Source of the DNA: Bacillota bacterium
GTDB taxonomy: Bacteria; Bacillota; Sulfobacillia; Sulfobacillales; Sulfobacillaceae
Assembly (NCBI GenBank): GCA_021846365.1
Contig: JAJZXC010000006.1
Coordinates: forward strand, 1 to 33,295
DNA length: 33,295 nucleotides
Direction of reading: 5' to 3'
Below are positions 25,831-33,295 of this stretch, piece after piece. The first letter of the stretch is position 1. Every line of letters begins with the position of its first letter. The position numbers and the translations under genes were made by a program. The notes beneath the pieces were generated by a model. The model ran no database searches. It was given only the letters and a program-made list of their open reading frames with translations, and was not told the origin of the DNA.

Positions 25831-26406
25831 CAATCGTCCGCCTCCACCCCAGTGATTTTGGCTGCCCACCTAGTTTGCATCCCTATTTTAAATGGTAGCA
25901 AATCAAAAAGCTCCACGGTAGAGTGTTCCTCGATTTAACTCTCAGCCGAATCCAACCGTGGCTTGACCCCGGTAATGCTTTCCAGCAACTCGCGCCCTGC
26001 TATAGGAGGCGGCTGATCGGGGAAAGCCGACCAGGCGGCTAAGGTGAACTGACGGCGCCAGTGGTACCGAACCTTCCGCTATCGGTCGACTCCGGCGGTG
26101 AGGCTGCCATTGCTTGCCGGCGGCGCGCAATCACTGCCGACGGACTGTCCCAACTGATGCGTGATAATGCCCCGCCGTTCAGAACGGAGACACCAGGCGA
26201 AAGTTTTCCGCGCATCTTTCGGCTGGCCGAATTTCGCGGTATGATTAATGAGTGTTTGCCATTTGAAAATTGGATATCCTGGCGGTTGTCTCCCGCCAGC
26301 GGGGGAGACGTAAAATGTATCTCATCGTCACCAAAAGACGTTCAAACCCGCGAACATCTGCCGACCACCTCTAAATACGGTGGGGCCATAGGCAAAACGG
26401 TCCGCT

Positions 26407-26950
26407 GCTAACACCCCTGAATAGTCTCCTCAGCGGGGGTCGGAAGACCCTAGCCAGCGATTACGATCACCGTCATCATGAAGACCAGGAGGATTTTGCT
26501 TCCTAATCCGTACCCGGTTGCCAAAGGCTGGGACACCGGAGTCAATTGGCGCGACCGGCTCCCCCGGGGGGCACCTGGGTCATAAACCCATGCCTAGGCG
26601 GGAAACTCAACAGGTCCACGCTTTTCGGCCAGGAAGCGCTTGCGTTGCCTTTTAGCACAACCATATCGCGCCATGACCGGCTTTGGGATGTGCATGATCA
26701 CAGGTAACCCCTCAGCGGGAAGCCGATGGAATAGGCGCTCGCACCACGCTTAAGTTAACCAGGTCATCATACCAGCCGGTCCTTCTCTAAGTTGATCACC
26801 CTGTATGGTGCGGCGTTAAAGGTGGGGGGGCTGAAAGCAGTGTCCTCGGCGTAACGGGCTTTTTAGAGACACTGGCTCGGAGATAATGTTCGGGTAGGTT
26901 TGAGCCGAACGCGAAACAGAGCTGCGTAAGGGGTCTCCGAAAGGAGATGG
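26407..26950 (+). ncRNA. Candidate omega-RNA (HEARO-like) upstream of an IscB remnant; 5' boundary uncertain
   Basis: No good ORF; serial hairpins: GGGTC-GGAA-GACCC (26437-26450), GTTCGG...CCGAAC (26888-26910), TCTCC-GAAA-GGAGA (26934-26947); ends directly before an IscB-like start codon, the canonical omega-RNA position. Confidence 0.55.
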
Positions 26951-26954
26951 ATTG

Positions 26955-27257
26955 ATGGTCTACGTTCTCGACAAGCATGAAATACCGCTGACTCCGTGTT
27001 CCCAGAAACTGGCAGCCCGCCTTTTGCTGGAACGCGGCTGGGCAGTGGTTGACAAAATGGCACCGTTCACGATCCGGTGGAAAGATAGACGGGGGCAAGA
27101 CAGTGTGCTTCAACTCATCGATCTCAAACTGGACCCTGCTTCCAACACGACGGCCCGTTTGCTTCAGCGTGCCAACGGTTGGCACTATGGAAAGGGGGTG
27201 TGCCGCGCTCCCTCCCCACCAGTGAACACAGGGGCTTGCGCGCGGCAATTTAGGTGA
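26955..27257 (+). pseudogene. Internally deleted IscB (PLMP domain + start of RuvC-I fused in frame to the C-terminal LLQRA-G-YG motif)
   Basis: MVYVLDKHEIPLTPCSQKLAARLLLERGWAVVDKMAPFTIRWKDRRGQDSVLQLIDLKLDPASNT matches IscB N-termini (VLDK...PL.PCS...AR.LL..G.A.V....PFTI...DR...DS..Q...LK.DPGS.TTG); the following TARLLQRANGWHYGKG resembles IscB C-termini (..RLLQRADGYGYG..). Confidence 0.75.
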
Positions 27258-27271
27258 ACATCCTAGACAAA

Positions 27272-28540
27272 ATGCATGAAGCGATCCAGCCGCCGTTCGA
27301 TCCAGCGCGGGCCCTGTACGAGGCCGAACGATGCTTGGAATGCGGACAAACCGGATCGCCTGCCCCTTGCACCGTGGCGTGCCCGGCGGGAATCGACGTG
27401 CCGGGATTTATCAAGAATATTCGCCTGGGCCACTTGCCCCAGGCCCAGGATATCGTGTTTGCGGAAAACCCGCTGGCGGGCACATGCGCTCGGGTTTGTC
27501 CGACGCCCGTCCTGTGTGAAGGAGCCTGCGTGCTGAACCACATCGGTCTCCGGCCGGTGGCTGTGGGTCGTTTGCAACGCGTAGCCGCCGACTACTCTTT
27601 CCCGTCGCCAGGAACCCCGGCACAGCGACCCTTCCTCCGTCTCGCCGAGGTCGCCGTCATTGGCGCGGGACCCAGTGGTCTTGCCTGTGCTCGCGCCCTG
27701 AGCGAACAGGGCATCGCGGTAACCGTGTACGACGGCGCACAATCCGCTGGTGGACTCGTGCGCACGGCGATTGCCCCCTACCGCCAGCCGGAGGGATCGT
27801 TGGAGTCGGAGGTTCGGCGACTCGAGGCAATGGGCGTGCGGTTTGAATTCAACCGGCAGTTGACCGCCCGTGAAGACTTTCGCCGCTTGGAAGACCGCTA
27901 TACGGCAATTTTTTTGGGCGTTGGCCTGGGTCCGGATAAGGCAGTCACCATCCCTGGGCACCACTTGGCTGGCGTTTGGGCAGCCCTGCCCTTTATCGAA
28001 CGGGCGAAATCCGGGGGATGGATGCCGCGAGCAGAACACTTGGTGGTAATCGGGGCCGGTAATACGGCGATCGACGTGGCCCGCGAGGGAATCCGCCTGG
28101 ACATACCCGAGGTCACCATCTTGTACCGGCGCACTCCGGACAAGATGCGCGCTTATCCGTTTGAGGTGCGGGAGGCAGTTCATGAGGGCGTGCGCTTTCA
28201 GTGGCAAGTGGAGGTGCAAGAGATCATCGGAACCTGGCGCGTTACGGGTGTGCGTTGCCGACGTGCCGGGATCGAGGGGGATGCTCGCCTCGAACTGCCA
28301 GCCGACTTAGTGGTGAGCGCAATCGGCCAACAGGCGCGCTCGGAATTGTCGCAACTGGTCGACGGCCTGACCTGGGACGGCAACCAATTGATCGTCGACC
28401 CTGCCAGTGGGCAAACCGGAAACCGGCAGTATTATGCCGCCGGTGACCTCATCGGCGGCACCACCGTGGTGGAGGCCGTACGCGGAGCCAAGTTGGCCGC
28501 GCAGGCAATGGCCCAGTCCGTGAGGAGGAATGCGGGATGA
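27272..28540 (+). CDS. FAD/Fe-S NAD(P) oxidoreductase subunit, GltD/NfnB/PreT-like (ORF open from GTG 27254)
   Basis: CLECGQTGSPAPCTVACPAGIDVPGFIKNIRLGHLPQAQDIVFAENPLAGTCARVCPTPVLCEGACVLN; VIGAGPSGLACARALSEQGIAVTVYDGA; VIGAGNTAIDVAREGIRL; YYAAGDLIGGTTVVEAVRGAKLAA. Confidence 0.9.
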   Translation: MHEAIQPPFDPARALYEAERCLECGQTGSPAPCTVACPAGIDVPGFIKNIRLGHLPQAQDIVFAENPLAGTCARVCPTPVLCEGACVLNHIGLRPVAVGRLQRVAADYSFPSPGTPAQRPFLRLAEVAVIGAGPSGLACARALSEQGIAVTVYDGAQSAGGLVRTAIAPYRQPEGSLESEVRRLEAMGVRFEFNRQLTAREDFRRLEDRYTAIFLGVGLGPDKAVTIPGHHLAGVWAALPFIERAKSGGWMPRAEHLVVIGAGNTAIDVAREGIRLDIPEVTILYRRTPDKMRAYPFEVREAVHEGVRFQWQVEVQEIIGTWRVTGVRCRRAGIEGDARLELPADLVVSAIGQQARSELSQLVDGLTWDGNQLIVDPASGQTGNRQYYAAGDLIGGTTVVEAVRGAKLAAQAMAQSVRRNAG

Positions 28541-29100
28541 TATCGATTCGGTGGCATGGCAGGGGCGGACAAGGAGCCAAGACCGCTGCCCACCTCATGG
28601 CGGTGGCATTTTTAAAGAATGGGCGCTACCCTCTGGCCTTTCCCGAATACGGCCCAGAGCGCACCGGTGCACCCATTACCGCCTACACTCGGGCGGACAG
28701 CCACCCGATTCGCTTGCGCTCGGCGATTCAGGTTCCTGACCTGGTCGTGGTGCTGGATCCTTCCTTGCTTGGCGAAGTTCCGGTGGCAGACGGGATTCCC
28801 GCAGGAGGATGGCTAATAGTGAACCGGCCCGCGGGCACCGCTCCCGCCGGTTTCGACGGCACGTTGTGGAATCTTGCCGGTGACCAGATAGCCCGTGAGG
28901 CCGGCGCCCGGTTTGCCAACACAGTGTTCATTGGAGCCCTCGCCGGACTTATCGGCGAACCCGACCTGACTCATCTGCGTGAGGCCGTGGATGAGGTTAT
29001 GGGGCGCTTGGCACGCGAGGTATTCGCCGCCTCGTGGAGAGCGCTGGAGGTAGGGTTTGGCCTCGGCGCGGAAAGGGGGGTCCATCGTGTCATTTCCTGA
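28537..29100 (+). CDS. 2-oxoacid:acceptor oxidoreductase gamma subunit
   Basis: ISIRWHGRGGQGAKTAAHLMAVAFLKNGRYPLAFPEYGPERTGAPITAYTR; overlaps the previous gene by 4 nt. Confidence 0.92.
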   Translation: MISIRWHGRGGQGAKTAAHLMAVAFLKNGRYPLAFPEYGPERTGAPITAYTRADSHPIRLRSAIQVPDLVVVLDPSLLGEVPVADGIPAGGWLIVNRPAGTAPAGFDGTLWNLAGDQIAREAGARFANTVFIGALAGLIGEPDLTHLREAVDEVMGRLAREVFAASWRALEVGFGLGAERGVHRVIS

Positions 29101-29401
29101 TACCATCCGCCCGGGCGCGCTTATCCGTTCCGGCGACCAACCGAGCCCGGACATGAGCGGATGGCGGGTTGACCGCAAACCTGCCGTCCAGTGGTCTTTG
29201 TGTGTCGACTGCCTGCTGTGCTGGGCGTTTTGCCCAGATTCGGCGGTGGTCGTGGAGTCGGGACATTTTGCCGGATTTCATTATCCCGCCTGCAAGGGTT
29301 GCGAGATATGTGTGGCTACCTGCCCCACGGGAGCGGTCGCCATGGTCCCGGAGACTAGCCCGGTAGGTCCCCGAGGCGAGATGGGAGGAGAGGCGCGATG
29401 A
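29087..29401 (+). CDS. 2-oxoacid:acceptor oxidoreductase delta (2x[4Fe-4S] ferredoxin) subunit
   Basis: CVDCLLCWAFCPDSAVVV and CKGCEICVATCPTGAVAMV; GTG start overlapping the gamma stop. Confidence 0.92.
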   Translation: MSFPDTIRPGALIRSGDQPSPDMSGWRVDRKPAVQWSLCVDCLLCWAFCPDSAVVVESGHFAGFHYPACKGCEICVATCPTGAVAMVPETSPVGPRGEMGGEAR

Positions 29402-30600
29402 CGTCGTGGTTCACTGACAAACCCCAAGACTTGCGCCGGTTTCGAGTCCTCACCGGCGGTCAAGCGGTGGCGGAGGCGCTTCGACAAATCGACCCTGACG
29501 TGTTTCCGGTCTACCCGATTACGCCCCAGACCCCCATCATCGAGGCCTTCGCGCAATGCGTGGCCGATGGCCGCAGTCACGCCCGGATTCTCACCGCCGA
29601 GTCCGAGCATTCGGCCATGAGTGCAGCCGTGGGCGCCGCTTTGGCCGGAGCTCGGGCAATGACGGCGACCGCCTCGCAGGGACTCGCCTACATGATCGAG
29701 ATCGTCTATTTGGCTGCCTCCCTGCGCGCACCGGTGGTCATTGCCGTCGGCAACCGCGCGCTGTCGGGACCCATTAACATTCACGGCGACCACTCCGACG
29801 GCATGCTGGCGCGCGATTCGGGCGTGGTCCAAGTCTATGTCACCACCGCCCAGGAAGCCTACGACTGGATGGTGATGGGAGTCAGGCTGGCCGAACACGG
29901 CGAAGTTTTACTGCCGGTGATGGTCGGACTGGACGGATTCACCCTCACCCATTCCGCCGAGCCGGTCGAGATCTTGGCAGATGCTGCGGTTCAGGAGTTT
30001 GTTGGTCCTTACGCCTATCCGTACCCGCTCTTATCCGAGGTTGCGGGTACCTATGGTGCCTTTGCCATGCCCGAACATTACTTCGAGATTAAACGCCAAC
30101 AGATTGCGGCCCTAGAGCGCGCCGAAGCGGTCTTGCCAGCCATCACCCGTTCCTTTGCCAAGCTTTGCGGAAGGCAATACGCTCCGCTAGAAGGGTATTG
30201 CATGGAAGACGCCGAGCGAGCCATGGTGATTATGGGCTCGCAGCGAGGGACGGCACAAGAAGCGGTGGACAAGCTGCGGGAGCGCGGTCAAAAAGTCGGT
30301 GTGGTAACCGTGCGCCTCTTTCGACCATTCCCGCGTCGTGACCTGGCCGAACAACTCCGAGCGGTGCAAGCCATCGCGGTGTTCGACCGGGCCAGCACCC
30401 CGGGCAGCTTTCCTCCCCTGTATTTGGATACCCGGGCGGCGGTCCGCACGCCCCGGGTGGACAGTGTGATCTATGGCCTGGGAGGACGGGACCTAACCCC
30501 GGACGACATCGTCGCGGTTTTCGACCGCCTTAAGAGGCCGGCGGTCGATGCTGACCCGATATTTTACGCCGGGTCGGACGAGATAGAACAGGAGCGATAG
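29398..30600 (+). CDS. 2-oxoacid:acceptor oxidoreductase alpha subunit (PorA-like)
   Basis: TGGQAVAEALRQIDPDVFPVYPITPQTPIIEAFAQ...TAESEHSAMSAAVGAALAGARAMTATASQGLAYMIEIVYLAASLRAPVVIAVGNRALSGPINIHGDHSD. Confidence 0.95.
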   Translation: MTSWFTDKPQDLRRFRVLTGGQAVAEALRQIDPDVFPVYPITPQTPIIEAFAQCVADGRSHARILTAESEHSAMSAAVGAALAGARAMTATASQGLAYMIEIVYLAASLRAPVVIAVGNRALSGPINIHGDHSDGMLARDSGVVQVYVTTAQEAYDWMVMGVRLAEHGEVLLPVMVGLDGFTLTHSAEPVEILADAAVQEFVGPYAYPYPLLSEVAGTYGAFAMPEHYFEIKRQQIAALERAEAVLPAITRSFAKLCGRQYAPLEGYCMEDAERAMVIMGSQRGTAQEAVDKLRERGQKVGVVTVRLFRPFPRRDLAEQLRAVQAIAVFDRASTPGSFPPLYLDTRAAVRTPRVDSVIYGLGGRDLTPDDIVAVFDRLKRPAVDADPIFYAGSDEIEQER

Positions 30601-30601
30601 T

Positions 30602-31582
30602 ATGCCCAATCTGAGAACATTAGCCGAACGGCAGGCAGCCCGCCCCGCCTTGGGCAGCGGCCATTCGTTGTGTCGTGGATGCGGCATTCCGCTGGTGGTA
30701 CGCACCGTGTTGGCCAGCATCCGCACCCCGGTGGCGGTGGTCAACGCCACCGGTTGCCTGGAAGTGGCTTCCACTCGCTACCCATTTACCGCCTGGTCGG
30801 TGCCCTGGCTACACGTGGCCTTCGAAAACGCCGCCGCCGTGGCCAGCGGAGTCGAAAGCGCCTATCTCGCGCTGCGCCGGCGCGGAGCCCTCCGGCAGAA
30901 CTTCACCTTCGTCGTCTTCGCCGGCGACGGGGGAACGTATGATATCGGTCTGCAGGCCCTCTCCGGCGCCCTGGAGCGCGGTCACCGCTTTCTATACGTT
31001 TGCTATGACAACGAAGGGTACATGAACACAGGAGTTCAGCGTTCCGGCGCCACTCCCCGCGCGGCGAACACCACCACCACGCCCAGCGGAGCGACATCCA
31101 CCGGCAAGGCCGAGGCCAGAAAAAATCTTACCGAAATCGTCCTTGCCCATCGGATCCCCTATGTCGCCCAAGCCGCCATTTCCCACCTTCAGGATCTGAG
31201 CGACAAGGTGGAACGAGCGACGCACAGCGAGGGACCGTCCTTCCTCAACGTGCTCTCGGCCTGTCCCCCGGGCTGGGGGTACGAGCCCCGAGACACCATC
31301 GCAGTGGTCCAACACGCGGTCAACAGCGGTTACTGGCCGCTTCTCGAGGTCATCGAAGGACATTGGCGATTGACCGTCCATCCCGAGCCGAGAGAATCGG
31401 TGGGCGATTGGTTTGGTTCCCAAAAACGCTTCCGGCACCTCTTTGACGGCGTCGATGTCGATCTCCTGGCCAGCCTGGAGCAAACCGCTGAGGCCGAGTG
31501 GCAACGGCTGGCGGAGATGGAAGCCCGTGACCGTGACTGGTTTGCTTCACCAGACGGCGCAAGGTGGGGGCTCAGCGACTGA
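30602..31582 (+). CDS. 2-oxoacid:acceptor oxidoreductase beta subunit (PorB-like, TPP-binding)
   Basis: GHSLCRGCGIPLVVRTVLASI...NATGCLEVASTRYPFTAWSVPWLHVAFENAAAVASGVE...FAGDGGTYDIGLQALSGALERGHRFLYVCYDNEGYMNTGVQRSGATP. Confidence 0.95.
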   Translation: MPNLRTLAERQAARPALGSGHSLCRGCGIPLVVRTVLASIRTPVAVVNATGCLEVASTRYPFTAWSVPWLHVAFENAAAVASGVESAYLALRRRGALRQNFTFVVFAGDGGTYDIGLQALSGALERGHRFLYVCYDNEGYMNTGVQRSGATPRAANTTTTPSGATSTGKAEARKNLTEIVLAHRIPYVAQAAISHLQDLSDKVERATHSEGPSFLNVLSACPPGWGYEPRDTIAVVQHAVNSGYWPLLEVIEGHWRLTVHPEPRESVGDWFGSQKRFRHLFDGVDVDLLASLEQTAEAEWQRLAEMEARDRDWFASPDGARWGLSD

Positions 31583-32899
31583 GCAGTGTTGATCAGCAGC
31601 CGCAGGGTTGACAAGCTGCGGCTCGGCCGGTAGGCCACGGTCTCGCGATGGGACCGGCCGTTCTGGATCGGCTTTTGACGCAGACTGATCCATAGTCGAT
31701 CCGCTGGCCGTGATGATCCTTGCTCGGGCCTGAGTCGGAGGGAGCTGGCTTGCACCCTCTGCGAGAACCTGGCTGGGATAGTACCGAACGAACAGGCGCG
31801 TGTACGAGTGCCTGCGGCTGCTGGAGCAGTTGGCTGAGGTGCGAGGTTGGTCACACGGGCAGAGACCTCGCCACGGCCGTCCCGGCTGCAGGCGGCACCC
31901 CTGCCGGGGTTGAACATGCAGACTGGGCTAGGTAGAGCCGGTGACGAGGGGCGGGTCGTTTGGGATGCGACCATGGCCCGGCATCACGCTCAGAGCTCTC
32001 AGCGTGCCTTTTGGGTGCCCGCGAGCGATACTGGATCTGCAGGGAAGCGCGTTTTCCCGGGCTCCCTGCGGTTTGCGGCAGCGAGCGGAACCTAGAGATC
32101 CCCGACCTGACCCGGCTGAGGCCGCTGCACATGCCTACCGGAGGGGAACATTTTCATCTCCTTCGAAGGCGGAGGATGAACCAAAGCCTGCCCAGGGTGG
32201 CGGCTTATAGTACCGCGCAGGTCTGTCCTGTCGTCAGTGACGACAGGATGGTGCGTCGGTGGTGAGGGATGTTTCTGAGCTTGATCATGAGTGATCATGA
32301 GTGTACTGCTTGCCAGTTGACCGTCTTTGGGGTATGCATGGTCACACGTGAGGGGATTAACCACGCGTCGATAAGATGACACCAAACTTCTCTCCCCTCT
32401 GCGAAGGGAGAGAAAGGTCAGGCGAGCAGTCGTTGTGTACATTTGTCTACGTTCTACAGACACCACTGATAGGCAGGGTGGCATGCCCTGATCCGGGCTG
32501 CGGCTTCATGCTAGGAAGCCAAGGTCCGCCGTATAGCAAGCCAATAACGACGCCTCGAATGGCGGACACATGGAAAAGTCCAAAGCGGCGACTATCCGAA
32601 GCTCGATCACGCTCAACCCAATAATACTCCTCGGGACTACCAGAGGTCGGTCATCCTCCTGAATCCGTGACAGACCGATTCAGAATTAACCGAGAAAGGT
32701 AGGATAACCCTTATACGGCAAATAATGGGGGAGATCAAGCGTGACCAGGGAACGGGTATCGTCATATTTAGCCGGAACGACTTGCAAAGCGCGGTAGATG
32801 GGGGTTCGACGCGCACCAAGGACCCGTTCCATTGGAACGGGAAAACTGGGGGGTGATGATGAAGTTTGCGGAGACTGCGATAAAGACAGACTGCCCTAA

Positions 32900-33295
32900 G
32901 AAAGGACAACTCAGGGCGCTGCAAAGTCGGCGTACAGTTGCCGCAGTACCCTTCCCCAAGGATTGGTGTCGGCATAGCGCAGGTAGATCGTCCGCCCATG
33001 GCGGACGACGTAGGTATAAGACGAGCCTTCTTTTTTGGTCCGACTGTTATCCATTGGCGACACGTCGACATCCAGGACAATATACTGCCGCTGTCCAATG
33101 GCCACTGGCTCGAAGTGGGCATACTGCTCCAACAGCGCGTCGGAACTCTCCCGCATCGCCGCTTGCCACCGCCGGCAAGGATCGCCGGCCACCCGGTCCA
33201 ACCGCTGTCGCAAGGTTGCCGACGAGGGCACCTGATCGATGCCCAAGGCTTGCTGAAAAAATGGATCTTGGCGCAATGGCTCAATGTGGTCATAG
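32900..33295 (-). pseudogene. IS1380-like transposase N-terminal fragment, frameshifted and truncated by the window edge
   Basis: DPFFQQALGIDQVPSSATLRQRLDRVAGDPCRRW...YIVLDVDVSPMDNSRTKKEGSSYTYV in one frame; ILGEGYCGNC continues in another frame. Confidence 0.72.

Follow-up and report, generated by a model that had tools for sequence, protein, structure and literature searches.

The window analysed here, a stretch of 33,295 nucleotides, corresponds to contig C262 in a draft genome of 3.0 Mb, and the following features lie in and around the omega-RNA and iscB remnants that are the subject of this analysis:

26417–26564, no strand assigned: left flank, a single-copy non-coding block with GGGTC-GGAA-GACCC, outside the omega-RNA scaffold
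26563–26578, plus strand: putative 16-nt guide place (CCCGGGGGGCACCTGG), the scaffold start being set by alignment
26578–26950, plus strand: decayed omega-RNA (HEARO-type) scaffold starting at GGTCATAAACCC, recognised by alignment to the relative L138, a profile match and 9.6 bits with the family covariance model
26750–26880, plus strand: conserved omega-RNA core, eroded, with 2 of the 8 pairs of the core hairpin kept
26934–26947, plus strand: terminal hairpin TCTCC-GAAA-GGAGA with the Shine-Dalgarno sequence of iscB, placed by alignments; in position equivalent to SL7 in the IsrB omega-RNA
26955–27152, plus strand: IscB residues 1–66 (PLMP domain and start of RuvC-I), from Pfam RRXRR, NCBIfam guided_IscB and comparison with the relative
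27153–27257, plus strand: C-terminal stub of IscB (RLLQRANGW...), fused in frame, from comparison with L138
27201–27253, plus strand: right end CCGCGCTCCCTCCCC...GGGG...GCGCGCGGCAATTT-GGTGA, common to other copies in this genome and in the sister species
27254–31582: operon immediately after the element, encoding a 4Fe-4S oxidoreductase (NAD(P)-type) and subunits of a 2-oxoacid:ferredoxin oxidoreductase

An ORF check bore out the initial annotation in that 26407–26950 holds no convincing ORF, and the small frames 26061–26408 and 26484–26582 had no Pfam match in the coding-potential check. Further upstream, a dispersed repeat (26156–26384; core 26253–26355) recurs across the genome as 13 or more further partial copies, which are ~73–81% identical over the core, and it matched no protein family. 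The end of the window (32637–33293) carries a DDE transposase fragment that is broken across two frames and matches PF13701 weakly.

The iscB remnant reported downstream of the RNA is real, with matches to Pfam RRXRR (50.5 bits) and, partially, to NCBIfam guided_IscB (53.8 bits), and searches with the remnant protein named Firmicutes bacterium UBA5766 and a Sulfobacillus MAG as relatives. The frame 26955–27257 is open over 101 codons. Compared with the 482-amino-acid IscB of L138 (Firmicutes bacterium UBA5766, DIEU01000035.1), to which it is 67% identical over the N-terminus and with which it shares RLLQRANGW (residue 461 in L138), ~394 residues are missing in frame. What is left of the nuclease with its PLMP, RuvC, bridge helix and HNH parts is residues 1–66 and roughly the last 20. 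Copies of the right end occur on contigs C120, C191, C237 and C253, and the sister species has two on its contig C64; similarity among the copies stops at GGTGA(A). Other iscB copies in the genome are also broken, and Y1 transposases are encoded elsewhere in it.

Several lines of sequence comparison connect 26578–26950 with omega-RNAs of related IscB loci. Aligned end to end with the omega-RNA of L138, from GGTCATA (26578) to the iscB start, the region scored 101.9, against −35.6 ± 12.4 for shuffled sequences (z = 11), and GCACAACCATATCGCGCCATGACC is nearly identical between the two; free gaps raise the raw identity of this alignment (74%), which should not be cited by itself. A DNA profile built from 43 neighbouring or related omega-RNAs matches 26750–27013 with 75 bits, iscB start included, and without the coding part still matches 26750–26947 (15.9 bits, E 1.3e-4), the best score in the reversed window being 8.1 bits. 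The RNA region sits immediately upstream of iscB and in the same orientation, as expected of an omega-RNA, whose end should lie ~50–60 nt before the start codon; the core match in the window ends at 26880, 75 nt before the ATG (62 nt at C199), and the distance from the end of the HEARO RNA to the iscB start is mostly 44–60 nt in relatives. The profile match and the L138 alignment therefore indicate that 26578–26950 was derived from an omega-RNA and, as judged from these comparisons, is homologous to the IscB omega-RNA (Rfam HEARO), so that the identification proposed initially is upheld by homology, position and orientation.

The four hairpins by which the region had been recognised are all present as sequence, i.e., two of GNRA type, starting at 26437 (GGGTC-GGAA-GACCC) and 26934 (TCTCC-GAAA-GGAGA), together with GTTCGG/CCGAAC (26888/26905) and AGTGTC/GACACT (26839/26868). 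As parts of the omega-RNA, only TCTCC-GAAA-GGAGA holds, which is perfect in the window and conserved in relatives; GGGTC-GGAA-GACCC belongs to the flank, and the other two match no family helix, since GTTCGG/CCGAAC falls inside an insertion relative to L138 in the pairwise alignment and the AGTGT of AGTGTC/GACACT sits in an arm that pairs upstream in the family model alignment. By its position, the terminal hairpin is the equivalent of SL7 in the IsrB omega-RNA, where SL7 includes the Shine-Dalgarno sequence and the PLMP domain makes contact with it (PMC9581776). Over the 544 nt, GNRA loops closed by 5-bp stems occur twice, against 0.018 expected per dinucleotide shuffle, and none of 1000 shuffles reached two, an excess that was counted after the fact; short hairpins overall were not enriched over shuffles (3 seen, 3.5 expected). 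Folding was no better than in shuffles (z = −0.44 for the whole stretch, 0.48 for 26578–26950 and 0.17 for 26417–26577), a measure that is uninformative here, as true HEARO RNAs themselves gave only −0.77 and −1.82.

Between the left flank, 26417–26564, and its orthologous place in the sister species (G001, contig C229), identity is 80%, with the first 41 nt identical; elsewhere in the searched genomes the flank had only short, chance-level matches. Because it lies outside the element and is shared with the sister species, the interval of 26407–26950 first assigned to the omega-RNA starts ~170 nt too early: 26578–26950 stands as an omega-RNA relic, whereas 26407–26577 is left-flank DNA. The IscB element now stands between this flank and the oxidoreductase operon further downstream. 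That the flank might encode a regulatory RNA was considered and rejected, given its shuffle-like folding, the lack of an Rfam match and its occurrence in the sister species only. As for the guide expected at the 5' end of the RNA, comparing the ~16 nt before the scaffold (CCCGGGGGGCACCTGG) with the chromosome by pattern search yielded no other site in the genome at 0–1 mismatch; eight sites matched at 2 mismatches and three matched the reversed pattern, none being closer, and the sequence at this place is not conserved in the sister species.

The suggestion that the RNA gene may be intact did not survive closer analysis. Rfam HEARO (RF02033) found no match in the window at the gathering threshold or at E ≤ 5, and hence nothing at the ≥83 bits of HEARO membership, while the same model gives L138 114 bits and reaches up to 147 bits within the family. 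We also used a family covariance model that covers the core and was derived from 22 related omega-RNAs, with compensatory change in 20 of its 34 pairs. It gave the window 9.6 bits at 26750–26880, which does not rise above the window's own background peaks (10.6 bits), compared with ~92–141 bits in the best-preserved copies: 141 bits for L139, a close copy of a model-building sequence, 99 bits for L138, which is absent from the model, and 101, 93 and 92 bits for C89, C199 and C148 in the same genome, where the partly broken copies C63 and C259 scored 65 and 64 bits. Of the conserved helices, the core hairpin (2/8 pairs kept) and one other (0/4) have been lost; the outer 5' stem keeps 5/8. By sequence-only global alignment, a noisy way of counting pairs in diverged omega-RNAs, the window retains 34 of the 67 pairs in the relative's structure, vs 28 ± 3.2 in neutral simulation (P = 0.04), and by this crude count the window does as well as some relatives that have iscB. 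The window omega-RNA may thus have decayed recently or still be under weak residual constraint.

At G001:C229 the same flank is followed, at the same spacing, by the same insertion (GGTCATAGG...), the right end and the same gene, and therefore the element inserted before the two species diverged. The omega-RNA there is eroded as well (7.6 bits with the family model), and the insertion retains only the C-terminus of iscB, the PLMP part and the terminal hairpin being lost; the two copies thus decayed by different deletions. The sister genome as a whole contains more than 20 HEARO RNAs (L098–L117), several of them lacking iscB or accompanied by nothing more than fragments of it; among the 20 places read, several had no detectable iscB, or pieces only, within the next 1.3–1.5 kb, and others were cut by contig ends.

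Based on these observations, we consider the window copy to be a dead pseudo-element, that is, the decayed relic of an IscB transposon in which iscB was internally deleted and the omega-RNA drifted without selection (probability about 0.88). An element consisting of omega-RNA, iscB and right end would have inserted, before the sister-species split, with the conserved non-coding block on one side and the leading gene of the 2-oxoacid:ferredoxin oxidoreductase operon on the other, presumably mobilised in trans by a Y1 transposase. An in-frame internal deletion would afterwards have removed most of iscB, and the omega-RNA would then have drifted free of selection, probably leaving no function behind. 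What counts against a dead element is that neither the terminal hairpin nor the PLMP frame has been damaged, together with the number of kept pairs slightly above the neutral simulation, and it is conceivable, if improbable, that the relic was exapted and still acts on the locus, either through a transcript and the PLMP mini-protein or through an omega-RNA working with an IscB in trans.

The second of these routes resembles the initial proposal of an orphan omega-RNA serving as partner to an IscB from another locus. Long IscB ORFs that could serve as partners do exist (474 amino acids at C164, 506 at C148), and the terminal hairpin and part of the outer 5' stem are kept, but the silence of HEARO, the score far below those of well-preserved copies, the ruined core helices and the erosion of the orthologous sister-species copy make a working guide very unlikely. 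A trans role of the window copy is unlikely for a further reason: our survey of the genome found, alongside the long ORFs, far better preserved omega-RNAs, among which the window copy is the poorest candidate. Still less probable is a small autoregulatory or exapted unit, composed of the PLMP mini-protein and the terminal hairpin and acting on the downstream operon. It would agree with the open frame, the retained Shine-Dalgarno hairpin and the contact of the IsrB PLMP domain with the corresponding hairpin (PMC9581776), yet the sister species lost both parts at the same insertion, and, once a deletion has preserved the frame, 101 codons can by chance contain no stop. Least credible to us is that no omega-RNA was ever involved and the hairpins arose by chance in intergenic DNA; the lack of a HEARO match and the shuffle-like fold energy would fit, but not the end-to-end alignment to the omega-RNA of a complete relative or the collinear profile match at the expected distance from iscB.

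The orphan-guide idea fits another locus of the genome much better than the window copy. On contig C89 (G000:C89, L171:1–640, minus strand), an omega-RNA core of 101 bits is followed, 18 nt on, by an IscB C-terminal stub (~38 residues) and the right end with no nuclease, forming a mini-element of ~0.45 kb, which we regard as the best orphan-RNA candidate of this genome and at which orphan guide RNAs acting in trans can be tested. Stand-alone omega-RNAs have been described in other bacteria, so the C89 type is not a new kind; among the papers covered by our literature search, none dealt with orphan or stand-alone omega-RNAs. The window relic is mainly of value in leading to such better candidates in the same genome. 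It also illustrates that visual inspection can pick out a guide-RNA region in which the curated model finds nothing, and that proximity to an iscB remnant does not make the RNA gene intact.

With the omega-RNAs of IS200/IS605-type IscB elements (RF02033), the window copy shares place, orientation, the start motif GGTCATA..ACCC, the terminal Shine-Dalgarno hairpin, the distance to iscB and the right end; unlike them, it has lost the core hairpin and one further helix, has acquired insertions and deletions, falls below any HEARO threshold and has its nuclease deleted. Internally deleted, non-autonomous derivatives of IS200/IS605-type elements keep both ends while the coding part is deleted. The window element resembles them in this respect, but it is a single decayed copy with no sign of spread in such form. 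The closest complete relative found, L138, has a related omega-RNA and right end and, in contrast to the window copy, combines its 482-amino-acid IscB with an omega-RNA of 114 bits (HEARO) and 99 bits (family model).
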